A stretch of DNA of 64,000 nucleotides, taken from Zasmidium citrigriseum. Taxonomy: Eukaryota; Ascomycota; Dothideomycetes; Mycosphaerellales; Mycosphaerellaceae. The position numbers and the translations under genes were made by a program. The notes below the pieces were generated by a model. That model did no database searches, was not told the DNA's origin, and saw only the letters and a list, made by a program, of their open reading frames with translations. This document shows positions 9,511-44,103 of this stretch, piece by piece. The stretch covers positions 310,001 to 374,000 of the forward strand of contig NHNW01000039.1 of the NCBI GenBank assembly GCA_002786025.1. Reading direction: 5' to 3'. The stretch's first letter is position 1. Each line of letters opens with the position of its first letter.

Positions 9511-10031
9511 AGTCGGCAACACGACATGACAATCTGGACTTTGCTGGAGATCCGGCAAGGCTTTAACGACGCATCCGGCTCGGCTTCGACCGATGGAGGA
9601 AGAAGGTGGATTGTAAGATGCCATGTACAGCTAAAGGCCCCAAGAAGGGGCCCACTCAGCTTCGATGACTGTATTCACTGTACTTTAGCATCATTGGAAA
9701 CCTGGCGCATAGATGGCGGACGGGTAGAGGGGAAGAGGAAAGCGATGCATAGCCCGGCGTTGATTTGAAGGACTCTACTGTACTGTAGCGTCGTTTTTGA
9801 TACCACAAAAAGCAACCGATCCCAGCTCTATCAAGCAGTAATAAATCATTCAAATCACTCATCGTTATTCTCCTCAATTTTCGTCGTGCCTGAGGCTCCA
9901 ATTTTCACGAGCATCGACTTCAGAAAGTTTAAATGGCGGGGTCCATTGACTCGACTCTCAAAACTTCTGACTGCCACATCACTTCCTCACACCAACCCAA
10001 CTCGATGGACCGCCGATAGCACTCGCCAAAC
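9511..10031. other. Intergenic, no gene seen
   Basis: The 3' region of TUF1 and the promoter of RPC53 (same strand). No convincing ORF, tRNA or repeat was found. Confidence 0.5.
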
Positions 10032-11912
10032 ATGCCTCCAAAGGAACCACCTGCGCCGCCGCAGGATACTGGCGACCAGCCGGTCAAGGTAGAAAGCACA
10101 TCGACCCAAGAACAAGCCACCGCAGGCGCTTCACAATCAGCGGCCTCGACACCCACGACCGGATCTCCAGCAGCCACAGGACCTCCAAGAGCACCTCTCC
10201 AATCACTCTCCCGATCAAACTCGGCATCCACACGAGGCGGCAAACCCGGCGTTCCAGCCCGAGCACCGAAATTCGTTGGTCGACGATCGCAGACTGCGCG
10301 ACAAGAGCTAGCAGAAGCAGAGGCGAAGAAGAAGGAGGCAGAAGCGAAAGCTGCTGCTGCAGAAGCTAAGAAAGATGCAAGAGAGGCGAAGAAGTTCGGT
10401 TATCGTAGCGGTGGAGATAGAGGTGGAAGAGGGGGGAGAGGGAGGGGACGGGGTAGAGGTGGGCATATGGGAGATGATCGGAGGAAAGGAGGAGACGTTG
10501 TGCCGAGCGGTCCTTTCAGTGCTGGACAGGCAAGTAGTGATGGTGGTTTGAGGAGGTCGGGATGGAGTTCTGGCGGTGGTGGAGGGTCTGGTGCTTTTGG
10601 GAGTGGGATGGCGTCTGGAGGTGGAGGTGGTGGAGGAAGATCGTATGGAGGCGGAGGCGGCGGTGGAGGTGGAAGATCCTACGGAGGAGGAAGTTCTGGT
10701 GGTGTCAAGATGGAGCCTGGCATGGGAGGTGGAATGCCATACATCAAGCCAGAAGACGGTGGCTACATCTCCAGCGACGACGATGAGGGGGACAGTGGTG
10801 GACCGAAGCAGAACATCGATCAACTTCAAGTGATTGATCTCACTGGAGAGGACAACGAACAGCTTGCGCCTGTACGGTTACAGAGACAAGAGCACAAGGA
10901 CCGAACTGTTGGCCTTAGTGTTGAGGAGGAAATGGAAAACGCAGAGGACGACTCCACTGAGAACGCTGCTGCAGACAAGAAGAAGGGCAAGCAGCGAGCT
11001 AAGGATGTTGAAGTCACAGGGGCGACCGAGCGAGCAAAGAGACCAACTGCATACAGTTCGTCCGATACAGACGGCGAGCCTTACATCAAAGAGGAACCTG
11101 TGGACGATGATTCAACTCGGCCTACGACGCCAGAGCCAGCGCCAGCGCCTGCAGACGGAACGATCACGAGTCCGCTATCTTCGCCGGAGAGTAGACGCAA
11201 AGCGAAGGAGAAGATCAAATCCACTGCCGATGCAGTTGCTGCAGATGAAGAAGACGGCTTCCCACTACCCGACCCGCCGAAGTTCCAGACGCAGGCAGAA
11301 AAGGACGAATGGGAGCGTCAATACGATGATTTGAGAGACATCCGCAACGAACTTGGTCGCCTTATGCCAAAGACTGCACCAGACGCAGACGGAGATGCGC
11401 CCATGACAGAGAACACACCCGCTTTGGAAAGAATCAAGGAGCAGCAGAAAGTAAGGGAAGAGCACGTCTATCTCTTCCAGTTCCCGCCGGTCCTCCCGGA
11501 TCTCTCGGCCGTGTCAGTCAAGCCAGATCCTGACACAATCCGTGTCTCGCATCCGGATGACCCTATGGATGTTGATGAGCAACAGCCAACACAAGAGGCG
11601 GCTAAGGATGCCAAGAAAGACGAGCCTCATGCTGGTGGTCAGCCCAAGTTACCCGCCGGAGCGGTCGGCAAGCTGAGAGTCCACAAGTCTGGCAAGACGA
11701 CATTGGACTGGGGAGGCACCAGCTTGGTGCTGGGCATGGGCGCTGAGGCGACATTCTTGCAAAACATCATGATTGCCAAGATGCCAGAGAAGAAGCCACT
11801 CGATGACGATGCTGCAGCTGACGAGGACCAGGAGCCTGCAATTGGAATGGGCATGGGTCAGATCAGGTCCAAGTTCGTCGTCACGCCGGATTGGGATGAG
11901 ATTTTGAAGTGA
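10032..11912 (+). CDS. RPC53: RNA polymerase III subunit Rpc4/Rpc53
   Basis: A single exon gives 626 residues. The C-terminal ~80 residues match the RPC4 family: GKLRVHKSGKTTLDWGG, then a hydrophobic core and the terminal FVVTPDWDEI. The rest is low complexity, as usual for Rpc53: a Pro/Ser-rich start, a Lys/Ala/Glu helix (residues ~90-130), a very Gly-rich RGG and GGGG tract (~130-235) and acidic linkers. By family, Rpc53 pairs with Rpc37 on Pol III and acts in initiation, termination and reinitiation. The Gly-rich tract is encoded by imperfect purine-rich repeats around 10,420-10,700, a likely place for length polymorphism. Confidence 0.92.
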   Translation: MPPKEPPAPPQDTGDQPVKVESTSTQEQATAGASQSAASTPTTGSPAATGPPRAPLQSLSRSNSASTRGGKPGVPARAPKFVGRRSQTARQELAEAEAKKKEAEAKAAAAEAKKDAREAKKFGYRSGGDRGGRGGRGRGRGRGGHMGDDRRKGGDVVPSGPFSAGQASSDGGLRRSGWSSGGGGGSGAFGSGMASGGGGGGGRSYGGGGGGGGGRSYGGGSSGGVKMEPGMGGGMPYIKPEDGGYISSDDDEGDSGGPKQNIDQLQVIDLTGEDNEQLAPVRLQRQEHKDRTVGLSVEEEMENAEDDSTENAAADKKKGKQRAKDVEVTGATERAKRPTAYSSSDTDGEPYIKEEPVDDDSTRPTTPEPAPAPADGTITSPLSSPESRRKAKEKIKSTADAVAADEEDGFPLPDPPKFQTQAEKDEWERQYDDLRDIRNELGRLMPKTAPDADGDAPMTENTPALERIKEQQKVREEHVYLFQFPPVLPDLSAVSVKPDPDTIRVSHPDDPMDVDEQQPTQEAAKDAKKDEPHAGGQPKLPAGAVGKLRVHKSGKTTLDWGGTSLVLGMGAEATFLQNIMIAKMPEKKPLDDDAAADEDQEPAIGMGMGQIRSKFVVTPDWDEILK

Positions 11913-19962: not shown

Positions 19963-21301
19963 ATGGCGGACGCCAACTCGGAGAGCATCCAGCAGAAGGC
20001 AAGCCAGCCCCCAATGCCGCCGCCCGCTGCGCTCCAGAGCTAACCTCCACCCCAGATCCAAATCGCACGGCGAGATGCGGAAGCCCTCAAGGACCGGATC
20101 AAGAGGAAAAAGGACGAGCTCGCCGACACCACACGTAAGTCGATACCGCGTGTCGCGCTCCGTGTGCGACGTGCGCCGGACACTGGCTAACCCTCTGCAG
20201 TCCGCGATGTCGCGCGACAACGCACCGAACAGCTGCCGCGCCTGGCGATGAAGACCAAGCGCACCCTCAAGGGCCATCTCGCCAAAATATACGCCATGCA
20301 CTGGTCCACCGACCGAAGACATCTGGTTTCCGCTTCGCAAGATGGCAAGCTCATCATCTGGGACGCTTACACCACAAACAAAGTACACGCAATTCCTCTG
20401 CGGTCATCATGGGTCATGACATGCGCCTACTCGCCCAGCGGCAACTACGTCGCATGTGGTGGTTTGGACAACATCTGCTCAATCTACAACCTCTCCGCAC
20501 GGGAAGGGCCAACTCGAGTCGCCCGGGAGCTTAGTGGCCACTCAGGGTACCTCAGTTGCTGCCGTTTCATCAATGATCGACGCATCTTGACCTCATCTGG
20601 CGACATGACTTGCGTGCTGTGGGACATTGAGACAGGTCAGAAGATCACTGAGTTTGCGGACCATCTTGGCGACGTGATGAGCTTGAGCATCAACCCACTG
20701 GATAACAACCAGTTCGTATCTGGTGCCTGCGACGCTTTTGCCAAACTATGGGATATCCGAGCGCAGAAGTGCACACAGACCTTTGCTGCACACGACTCGG
20801 ATATCAACGCCATCCAATTCTTCCCTAACGGAAATGCCTTTGGGACGGGATCCGACGACGCATCATGTCGGTTGTTTGACATTCGAGCTGATCGCGAACT
20901 TCAAAGCTACACAGTAAGTTTTGGAAACGGGTGCAAAGAGCTAGACGAATACTAATACTTGACAGATTGGCGAGCCTGTATGCGGTATCACATCGGTCGC
21001 TTTCTCCGTATCTGGTAGACTTCTCTTTGCTGGCTACGACGACTTCGAGTGCAAGGTACGGCCGAGACCACTTTCCCGCGTATGTGAGACGAGCGGCTAA
21101 TGTTTCAATGCAGGTCTGGGACGTATTGCGCGGCGAGAGAGTTGGCACTCTGCAAGGGCACGACAACAGAGTGAGCTGCCTGGGAGTGAGCAACGACGCC
21201 ATGTCGTTATGCACCGGGTCGTGGGATTCAATGGTGAGCATTTTGACATCTGCATACTCTAGCCTCGCTAACCTCGCCCTCAGCTCCGGATCTGGGCATG
21301 A
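19963..21301 (+). CDS. Heterotrimeric G protein beta subunit, 6 exons
   Basis: Exons 19963..19998, 20056..20134, 20201..20913, 20966..21055, 21114..21233 and 21284..21301 give 351 residues. The N-terminal coiled coil ([22 protein letters not shown]), which binds gamma, is split by the first two introns. Seven WD40 repeats follow, with strong segments such as [14 protein letters not shown] and [12 protein letters not shown], and the product ends LRIWA. The first intron uses a GC donor (AAG|GCAAGC...CCAG). By family (SfaD/GNB-1/MGB1) it pairs with G-gamma to control growth, conidiation and mating. The phosducin-like gene follows about 1.3 kb downstream on the same strand. Confidence 0.95.
19999..20055 (+). 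other. GC-AG intron in the G-beta gene
   Basis: The intron is 57 bp. The donor is AAG|GCAAGC, the usual form of functional GC donors, with a GCTAACC branch site and CCCCAG acceptor. Splicing here joins QQK to IQIARRD in frame and gives the conserved N-terminal helix. No GT donor nearby does so. Confidence 0.85.
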
Positions 21302-41125: not shown

Positions 41126-41150
41126 GCTTTCATGGCGCAGTGGTAACGCG

Positions 41151-41203
41151 GTAAGCAAAATTGACAACTCCTGCGTAGTTGAACACCCTCTGATTGTGCC
41201 CAG
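41151..41203 (+). other. 53-nt GT...AG insert in the tRNA D-arm/anticodon junction
   Basis: It begins GTAAGC and ends GTGCCCAG, with CTGAT 10 nt before the end, so it looks like the short spliceosomal introns of neighbouring protein genes (47-70 bp, some with GTAAGC donors). It interrupts the tRNA exactly between G26 and T27. Boundaries are ambiguous by one base (G at both ends). A CAACT...AGTTG hairpin lies inside it. Confidence 0.75.
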
Positions 41204-41214
41204 TCGCACTTGTA

Positions 41215-41236
41215 CATCCATCAAATGGATCAATCA
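41215..41236 (+). other. Canonical tRNA intron, position 37/38
   Basis: 22 nt immediately 3' of the base after the TGT anticodon, the universal eukaryotic tRNA intron site; it contains ATCCATCAAATGGAT, an internal hairpin. Confidence 0.8.
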
Positions 41237-41274
41237 ATGCGAAGATCCCTAGTTCAATTCTGGGTGGAAGCAAA

Positions 41275-41279
41275 TTTTT
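41275..41279 (+). terminator. Pol III terminator
   Basis: TTTTT starting 3 nt after the discriminator base of the tRNA-Thr gene. Confidence 0.85.
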
Positions 41280-42415: not shown

Positions 42416-44103
42416 CTAGATCATTGCCTCCATGCGGTGGAGATCGGAGTTCTTTGTCCATCGTCGCAAGCTCTTTCCGTAGAAGTAGAGTGGGATCGTG
42501 AGGACGACGGGGAACATGGACACGGCGAATTGGATCATGTAGACAGTGACCCAGCCGTCACGCGCCATGATGTCGAAGACCCAGTAGCTGAGACAGAAGC
42601 CGAGGACGTTCTTGAGAACAGTACCGACGACCATGATCTCACCGGAGATGGGCTTGTAGCAGTCGATAGCATACGCGATAGCGATGGCCGGGATCGAGGT
42701 GACGGCGAGACCAGAGAATCCGAACCCGCAGACAATGATGGCTTGCCATGGCCAGAGACGCTGGTAACCGACGGCGCCAACCACGTGAGAGATGATGAAG
42801 AAGCAGACGTATGGAATGAGAGCAGGAAGACGCATCTCAGCCTCACGAATGCCGTTATTCTTGAGAGTCATGCGGCGAGCCCACCAATCGGACAGAGGTC
42901 CAGCTGTCAACACACCGAAGATGCCGCCAACGAAGAATGCGAAGTTGCTGTAACCGACGGCTTGTGGAGACCAGCCATATGCAGGAGAGCCGAGAAGTCC
43001 AGACTCAGTGAGGTTGAACAGCAGGAGCAGATCGGCGGGACCAGCAAGCATCAAAGCGGACCAGAACACGATTGGGTTGAAGAAGACAATGATGGGTGTG
43101 GTAAGATCGCGAATGACGAAGGACATCCATCTGCGGTCTGGCTTCATCATTGGGGCGTACTGGGCCTTGCTCGGGCGGCCCTTGCGGACCCATTGTCCAT
43201 CAGCAGCATCGCTGTTGCTGTTCATCTCCGAATCGACTGTCTTCTCTTGCACTTTGCTCTGATCCTTCTCGCCAGACTTGGTACCGGCGTGGTTGGTGGA
43301 GTCGCGGTGATACTTGGTCTCTGGGTAGCAGAAGATCAGGAGGATTGTGACAAATCCAGCCAGGGCTGTTGACAACCAGAAGAAGCTGCGCCATCCGTGA
43401 CGGCTTCCGATCGACCCAGCCATGATGGGACCCAGAAATGCTCCAGAGAAGTAGAAGGTGAAGTACATGGCCATCCACGTGCCACGCTCGTGCAGGAAGA
43501 ACATGTCGGCAATGGTTTGTACCATAATCGTCTCGCTGGTCGCTGCAACGATACCGTTGCATGCACGGGCAGCAAGCAAACTTTCATGGCTAGACGCCAG
43601 CGCTTGCCAAACGTTGGTAAGTACCACGAGTACGCCGAAGAAGATGCTGGTGGGCCTTCGACCGAAGATGTTCGAGATTGGAACGATGAAGACGTTGGCG
43701 AAGCCGAGCGTGATCACGTTCAATCCTGTGAGAAGCGAGAGTTGTTGCTGATTGAGGTGGAACTCCTGGCCCAGGAAGGGGAACAGAGGCGCGAGCGATA
43801 GTGCTGAGCACACGAGCACCCAGACGTAGAGCAACTGAGAGAATGCCACTACAAGCTTCCAGGGTGTGCTCCAATTGAGTGGGTCGTTGCGGTTGTTCGA
43901 GGGCTGAGGCACAAGGCTGTAATCATTAGGAGGTTGTTCACGAGTTGCAAGAGGAAGACTTACACAGAGCCCTTGTCTGCGCCATTGGCATGTGCGAAGT
44001 GGACGTCGCCCACATCTTTCATGACCTCAGTTCCGGGGAGAATCTCATAGTCGAGTTGCTCCGCCACTCTTGTCTCTGACGCCTCCGCTGCATTGGTGGC
44101 CAT
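42416..44103 (-). CDS. MFS transporter, drug:H+ antiporter-like (12-TM), 2 exons
   Basis: Exons 43964..44103 and 42416..43916 (47-bp intron) give 546 residues. The protein has a hydrophilic N-terminus, then DPLNWSTPWK just before TM1, the DHA1-type fungal signature. NIFGRRP follows TM2, and ARACNGIVAATSETIMVQTIADMFFLHERG spans TM4. A central loop is Lys/Glu/Ser-rich (~240-290), with SDWWARR before the second half and six more helices. By family it exports small hydrophobic compounds from the cell. It lies at the left of a GFA/Dabb/lactonase group and may serve as its exporter, which is inference. Confidence 0.87.

Follow-up and report, generated by a model that had tools for sequence, protein, structure and literature searches.

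A tRNA-Thr(UGU) gene of Zasmidium citrigriseum carries an insert of 53 nt between its D arm and its anticodon stem. Is this insert removed from the transcript, and by which machinery, or has it killed the gene? tRNA splicing (by an endonuclease and a ligase) and mRNA splicing (by the spliceosome) are regarded as distinct processes, each with its own machinery and its own substrates. No earlier report of spliceosomal introns in tRNA genes was found among the matches listed for open-licence PMC papers, and the available portion of PMC11782384 names none. In 2017, frequent interruption by an intron was known among small structured RNAs for U3 and U6 only, according to the accessible part of PMC5832005. 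Analysis of the window (a stretch of 64,000 nt from contig NHNW01000039.1) and of the whole assembly (44.4 Mb in 148 contigs) indicates that the 53 nt are very probably a U2-type spliceosomal intron of a live nuclear tRNA gene, one of a large set of similar build, and that the spliceosome would be the first to process these Pol III pre-tRNAs.

The tRNA-Thr(UGU) gene of the window

The plus strand at 41126-41272 reads as a tRNA-Thr(UGU) gene with two inserts, of 53 and 22 nt (Table 1). As the first-pass annotation had described, a complete 72-nt tRNA-Thr(UGU) remains once both are taken out, according to the sequence and to ARAGORN after the cut; the gene has A and B boxes and a T5 run, and the D arm (GCGC/ACGC) has C13-A22 as its only mismatch. 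The other arms are sound, with 7/7 pairs in the acceptor (GCTTTCA/TGGAAGC), 5/5 pairs in the anticodon stem (TCGCA/TGCGA, with the loop CTTGTA/A) and 5/5 pairs, one of them G-U, in the T stem (CCTAG/CTGGG).

In the uncut window, no tRNA is found by ARAGORN without introns or by Rfam at the gathering score, and ARAGORN calls none at this locus even if introns of up to 300 nt are permitted. Once the 53 nt are cut out, the ARAGORN score is 108.7; the program then shifts the position of the 22-nt intron and labels the tRNA 'Ala tgc', the stems being unchanged from the Thr(UGU) reading. Among 1,581 alternative segments at this site, five score above the insert and nine (the insert included) equal it, and the insert is the sole GT..AG segment among these 14. 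Random cuts of the same length equal the observed score in one of 100 trials. Taken alone, the locus is suggestive and not decisive; it becomes decisive because 25 further inserts with the same grammar occur in 14 other genes.

Table 1. Features of the tRNA-Thr(UGU) locus, mRNA introns of the window, intron positions in interrupted tRNA genes, and U6 candidates.
Feature	Location	Strand	Basis
Exon 1, nt 1-26: acceptor 5' strand, A box (41133-41143), D arm	41126..41150	+	sequence, ARAGORN without insert
53-nt spliceosomal-type intron at 26/27 (G26/T27), GTAAGC ... CCCAG	41151..41203	+	same grammar as 25 further tRNA introns and 6 window mRNA introns
Branch-site-like CTGAT, A at 41193, 10 nt before intron end	41190..41194	+	sequence
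Exon 2, nt 27-37: anticodon stem 5' strand, anticodon UGU (41211-41213)	41204..41214	+	sequence
Canonical 22-nt tRNA intron at 37/38, after A37	41215..41236	+	sequence, ARAGORN
Exon 3, nt 38-73: anticodon stem 3' strand, variable loop, T arm and B box, acceptor 3' strand, A73	41237..41272	+	sequence, ARAGORN
T5 Pol III terminator, starting at third nt past A73	41275..41279	+	sequence
Stretch with five G-protein beta mRNA introns, 50-66 nt	19999..21283	+	Pfam, tblastn with P0122/P0126, sequence
mRNA intron of neighbouring MFS gene, 47 nt, GTAAGT..CTAAT..CAG	43917..43963	-	tblastn with P0001, sequence
Introns of Thr(UGU), window	26/27
Introns of Val(CAC)	46/47
Introns of Leu(CAG)	47/48
Introns of Lys(CUU) on C61 and of Lys(CUU) on C66	each 54/55, 70/71
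Introns of Lys(CUU) on C105	69/70
Introns of Arg(CCU)	4/5, 53/54, 68/69
Introns of His(GUG)	52/53, 63/64
Introns of Arg(UCU)	4/5, 62/63
Introns of Pro(CGG)	21/22, 47/48
Introns of Thr(CGU)	4/5, 62/63
Introns of Ala(UGC) on C77	54/55
Introns of Ala(UGC) on C94	4/5, 54/55
Introns of Pro(AGG)	4/5, 21/22, 61/62
Introns of Leu(CAA)	63/64
U6 candidates with intron (L120, L121)	C59:490950-491109, C72:164981-165035		30.7 and 40.4 bits, Rfam cut-off 44
U6 candidate without room for intron	C117:112082-112180		whole model over 99 nt, 42.2 bits, Rfam cut-off 44

Distribution of the inserts among tRNA genes

Thirty nuclear tRNA genes were read, which are a sample and not a census of this one genome. Spliceosomal-type inserts are present in 15 of them, with one to three per gene and a total of 26, located on 13 contigs. 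The proposal of the first-pass annotation that a spliceosomal-type intron had landed in a Pol III tRNA gene is thus supported, and it now covers 26 introns in 15 genes; a single freak event is not borne out, as the inserts recur in 14 other tRNA genes. The interrupted hosts are tRNA genes with 12 anticodons, specific for eight amino acids. Their inserts are found in the acceptor stem, the D loop, at 26/27, in the variable region, the T arm and the 3' acceptor strand (Table 1; positions follow our own numbering, derived from the stems). All five introns of the 5' acceptor strand lie exactly at 4/5, and exons between two introns have only 11-16 nt in 5 out of 11 cases. None of the 26 introns lies within 8-20, 27-43 or 55-60 (A-box core, anticodon arm and T-loop core).

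Two known classes of introns were rejected. Canonical endonuclease introns at 37/38 do not match inserts that all avoid 27-43, the separate 22-nt intron of the window gene being one that does qualify. Group I and group II introns have a large conserved ribozyme core, to be compared with the 50-58 nt of the inserts, and Rfam gave no match in the window at the gathering score.

The 15 interrupted genes were chosen because inserts had been spotted in them by eye. The 15 insert-free genes are those for Gly(UCC), Ser(AGA) (two), Ala(AGC) (two), Thr(AGU) (two), Ser(GCU), Asn, Glu, Thr(UGU) on C69, Tyr, Val(AAC), Cys and Arg(CCG), with ARAGORN's labels except for the Thr(AGU) on C98. The count of 30 leaves aside the tRNAs on C41 and C51 (clustered, and for this reason regarded as mitochondrial), one locus in an AT-rich stretch (L028) and multicopy tRNA-like repeats. 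Loci were collected by an Rfam tRNA search (63 of 1,309 candidates scored) and by D-arm patterns, of which all 44 matches of one set and some of the matches of two other sets (49 and 18) were retrieved. A B-box pattern gave 196 matches, compared with 158 in a reversed control, and the 30 loci among the matches listed (L038-L067) were run through ARAGORN only. A pattern combining a 4/5 intron and a D arm gave six places, compared with one in the reversed control. Five of the six are known interrupted genes; the sixth (C105:884557-884585) shows a branch site, an AG and a D arm at the distances expected for a 4/5 intron. From the 29 letters seen, its D arm resembles what we take to be that of initiator tRNA-Met, and this place is regarded as a candidate.

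Restoration of the tRNA fold

A script cut out all segments of 42-85 nt that run from GT to AG and have a CTRAH 4-20 nt before the AG, up to three segments together, and the cut loci were scored by ARAGORN with anticodon introns of up to 45 nt and anchored on the D arm. An anchored tRNA was obtained at 1/15 uncut loci (Lys(CUU) on C105) and at 15/15 loci after the cut, with a cloverleaf at all 15. The winning cuts share a length of 50-58 nt (26/26), a GTA start (24/26) and a branch A located 10-12 nt before the final AG (26/26), none of which was demanded by the search. Some cut tRNAs, when examined by eye, are imperfect: the Lys tRNA has a T-T mismatch in its anticodon stem and U73, the Ala tRNA has one acceptor mismatch, the Arg(CCU) tRNA has four G-U pairs in its acceptor and the His tRNA has an untidy anticodon stem and variable loop.

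The standard tools recover only part of these genes in their uncut state. The Rfam tRNA model places 4/15 above its cut-off (Val, Leu(CAG), Lys(CUU) on C105 and Arg(CCU)), and ARAGORN with the 300-nt limit calls Val, Leu(CAG) and Lys(CUU) on C105, with the insert shifted near the anticodon.

How strictly the fold fixes the borders was examined by scanning all starts and lengths (1,054-1,581 segments per intron). A GT..AG rival scores higher for 1 of the 26 introns, the variable-loop intron of Pro(CGG), for which the top choice of ARAGORN (GTCCAC, 114.1) was overridden by a GTAAGT segment scoring 2.2 lower (111.9), because the latter leaves a normal 5-nt loop. Segments with any ends outscore the chosen intron in 9/26 scans, in six of these by 2 to 12 segments. 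The variable-region scans gave 84 (Val), 63 (Leu(CAG)) and 129 (Pro(CGG)) such segments; in variable regions, the intron borders are hardly fixed by the fold.

Random cuts of the same number and lengths never reached the observed score in 100 trials at twelve loci. Besides the window gene, Val (3 of 100 trials) and Leu(CAG) (19 of 100) are the exceptions, so single-intron loci are weaker in this control. Some lower-scoring anchored tRNA arose from random cuts in 0-100 of 100 trials depending on the locus, for instance 79 for Leu(CAG), 69 for Pro(CGG) and 100 for Lys(CUU) on C105. When the search for intron-like cuts was applied to 51 D-arm-like places, nine were tRNA-like uncut, 13 only if cut and 29 never; the last group includes genuine or tRNA-like genes, such as that for Cys, with a middle part longer than the 45-nt limit. 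Of the 13 cut-dependent places, 12 are interrupted genes, and the remaining one is a tRNA-like repeat (L070) whose 5' splice site is poor.

Splice signals and comparison with other introns

All 26 tRNA introns measure 50-58 nt. Their 5' splice sites are GTRNGY-like: 24/26 start with GTA and 11 with GTAAGT, although the search required GT only. A CTRAY with its branch A 10-12 nt before the final AG is present in 26/26 (the search required CTRAH at 4-20 nt). The six mRNA introns of the window, five in a G-protein beta gene and one in a transporter gene, were delimited by homologous proteins. They measure 47-66 nt, carry CTAAY 9-13 nt from their end and start with GTAAGT (three), GTACGG, GTGAGC or GCAAGC. 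The remark of the first-pass annotation that the 53-nt insert has the size of introns in neighbouring genes is therefore correct, and the signals of both sets are similar.

Some features of these protein genes can be mentioned. The first G-protein beta intron (19999-20055, plus strand) is a GC-AG intron (GCAAGC..CTAAC..CAG). The neighbouring transporter (42416-44026, minus strand) is 95% identical to a Zasmidium cellare protein and shares 86% identity with proteins of Cercospora kikuchii and Lecanosticta acicola, which puts the genome in or near Mycosphaerellaceae (Dothideomycetes). Another gene of the window (10020-11909, plus strand) codes for RPC4, a subunit of RNA polymerase III (Pfam PF05132).

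tRNA introns located outside 37/38, several per gene, are known from archaea, Cyanidioschyzon merolae and nucleomorphs, and those of archaea and C. merolae rest on a bulge-helix-bulge structure (accessible part of PMC4090602). Removal of the inserts by the tRNA endonuclease at such structures, as in Cyanidioschyzon and perhaps nucleomorphs, would agree with their sites and with their number per gene. The inserts studied here differ by their GT-AG and branch signals, and the full central helix is missing at 24/26 junctions. It is complete at the 4/5 junctions of Arg(CCU) and Thr(CGU), i.e. at 2/26 compared with 2.35% of 2,000 random junctions; in both cases at least one flanking helix is incomplete. 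At the window junction, two of the four pairs of the central helix form. Since this helix would be the relevant type of pairing, the role in recognition that the first-pass annotation considered for the ACGC/GCGT and GTGC/GCAC pairings across the junctions is not supported on this evidence. To our knowledge, a conserved GTAAGT, a conserved CTAAC and a fixed branch distance play no role in the bulge-helix-bulge pathway. This explanation is extremely unlikely.

Introner-like elements are short spliceosomal introns gained in related Dothideomycetes (PMC4457414; the word tRNA is absent from its main text). The inserts could be recent mobile intron copies of this type that also struck tRNA genes, an explanation that bears on their origin and not on their present working. 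Such an origin, raised by the first-pass annotation, did not find support: a DNA search of the genome, as it had suggested, found no copy of the 53-nt insert and matched the 147 nt of the gene at the window locus only. The best pairwise identity among the 26 introns is 0.76 (between Lys paralogues) and is otherwise at most 0.74, so near-identical copies, as expected of introners, are missing among these 26. Shuffled introns, in which the shared splice signals are not kept, reach a mean identity of 0.56 and a maximum of 0.68 over 300 pairs; measured against them, weak kinship among the tRNA introns may exist. An origin from introner-like elements is unlikely. An assembly or strain artefact could be considered, since a single assembly of 148 contigs was used, but 26 inserts sharing one splice grammar on 13 contigs are an implausible product of misassembly, which makes this explanation almost inconceivable.

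Pol III anatomy of the interrupted genes

All 15 interrupted genes combine a cloverleaf after the cut, A and B boxes (recognized by eye) and a terminator, a run of at least five T that starts 3-52 nt past the 3' end. No such run is found inside any of the 15 gene bodies, introns included. TTTT occurs in 1/26 introns, compared with 5.5 in shuffles (P about 0.01), and TTTTT in 0/26, compared with 1.6 in shuffles, which is not significant. The 54/55 introns (4/26) change the first letters of the B box in the DNA.

In the five genes with a 4/5 intron, this intron displaces the A box by 52-54 nt from exon 1. A TATA-like word is located 39-58 nt upstream of exon 1 in 5/5 of these genes, and none is found within their 4/5 introns (0/5); these data suggest that the promoter element keeps to exon 1 and not to the displaced A box. 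The same word list, drawn up by eye, matched 7/10 other intron-bearing genes (the window gene not among them) and 5/13 genes without such introns.

Paralogues and the search for intron-free copies

In two sets of paralogues, the copies are distinguished by exactly one unit with GT and AG as its borders. The Lys(CUU) gene on C105 is without precisely the intron that the C61 and C66 copies have in their T loop: it reads GCGGGTTCGAGCC, and the counterpart in the two others is GCGGGT-intron-TCGAGCC. Likewise, the Ala(UGC) gene on C77 lacks precisely the 4/5 intron of the copy on C94 (GGGCGTG compared with GGGC-intron-GTG). The three Lys(CUU) genes (L034, L110 and L111) have different upstream flanks and a common conserved trailer in which two small hairpins precede the terminator; the second hairpin of the C105 copy shows a paired change, CTCTATC/GATAGA for CTCTGTC/GACAGA.

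For tRNA-His, which has one anticodon, a single locus was found and it carries two introns. A search of the genome with the 71-nt intron-free tRNA-His returned only pieces of the source locus. With the intron-free Lys(CUU), only the three interrupted copies were matched, and with the intron-free Thr(UGU) only pieces of the window gene. The intron-free Pro(AGG) query gave zero matches, its own exons, which are too short, included, and speaks only against an intron-free twin.

The interrupted genes might be dead, i.e. pseudogenes killed by insertion beside intact copies. Another Thr(UGU) gene, without an insert, does exist (C69:219906-219990; divergent body, U73), and the imperfections of some cut tRNAs also agree with decay. 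The first-pass annotation had regarded an intact Thr(UGU) copy elsewhere, combined with a transcript that retains the 53 nt or is absent, as the mark of a gene killed by insertion; the copy was found, and the other half of this combination is a property of the RNA. As the C69 gene exists, the window gene need not be indispensable and might be dispensable. Nevertheless, inserts occur in 15/30 genes read, all 15 yield a cloverleaf once cut and have a terminator behind them, the His, Thr(UGU) and Lys(CUU) queries returned interrupted loci only, and decay would not produce 26 inserts sharing one splice grammar. Death of these genes is thus very unlikely, and, of the two outcomes considered in the first-pass annotation, splicing is better supported than a newly dead gene by the 15/30 genes, the tRNA-His locus and the 15/15 cloverleaves.

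A model for the processing of interrupted pre-tRNAs

If the inserts are spliceosomal introns of live genes, the following order of steps, which we infer from established tRNA processing, can be proposed. Pol III would transcribe the whole gene from the A and B boxes and the upstream TATA-like element and would stop at the run of five or more T. The spliceosome, as the presumed cutter, would remove the GT-AG intron or introns in the nucleus from this uncapped Pol III transcript, and the interrupted arms would fold only after this cut. The acceptor stem is divided by the introns at 4/5 and 68-71, so that in these cases end trimming by RNase P and RNase Z should come after the splicing. The tRNA endonuclease would take out the 37/38 intron last, and the presumed products would be working mature tRNAs.

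Several known systems resemble parts of this model. The introns of fungal U6 snRNA, a Pol III transcript, and of U3 snoRNA also combine GT-AG ends and a branch site within small structured RNAs. In contrast, the hosts described here are tRNAs, with up to three introns per gene at many positions and with endonuclease-type introns in the same RNA. The canonical 37/38 introns (Sen endonuclease, Trl1 ligase) exist beside the new introns, as in the window gene, but need no spliceosome and differ from them in position, length class and lack of conserved splice signals.

It is quite likely that the spliceosome is an obligatory tRNA-processing enzyme in this lineage: tRNA-His, Pro, Lys(CUU), Arg(CCU, UCU), Thr(CGU) and perhaps initiator Met would be made only via it, before trimming by RNase P and RNase Z (for the split acceptors) and before endonuclease splicing. 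This would tie protein synthesis directly to mRNA splicing. One pre-tRNA would need both splicing machines in a forced order, and the tRNA supply would depend on the activity of the spliceosome. The recognition of uncapped Pol III transcripts by the spliceosome, its handling of 11-16-nt exons and the gain of introns in genes without a reading frame would all become testable in such a system. In such genomes, tRNA finders can miss genes that are needed, as illustrated by the blank results of ARAGORN and Rfam at the window locus.

U6 candidates and tRNA-like genes

Two out of three U6 candidates (Table 1) carry a GTAAGT..CTAAC..AG intron at the same point, after AGCWTGGCC.

Multicopy and often clustered tRNA-like genes (L075, L076, L080-L082, L091-L093, L103, L104, L115 and L122) are located on contigs C61, C70, C78, C94, C118 and C124. 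Their acceptor, D and T arms are sound, T runs follow them as terminators, and a long hypervariable stretch, often without U33, replaces their anticodon loop (all by eye). At least two families can be distinguished, GGTCTCG../CGAGACCA and GCTGATC../GGTCAGCA. Together, they appear to form a class of tRNA-shaped RNAs made by Pol III. In L070 (C1:970111), another tRNA-like gene, the variable stretch includes an intron-like GTAAGC..TACTAACGTTTCCTTAG.
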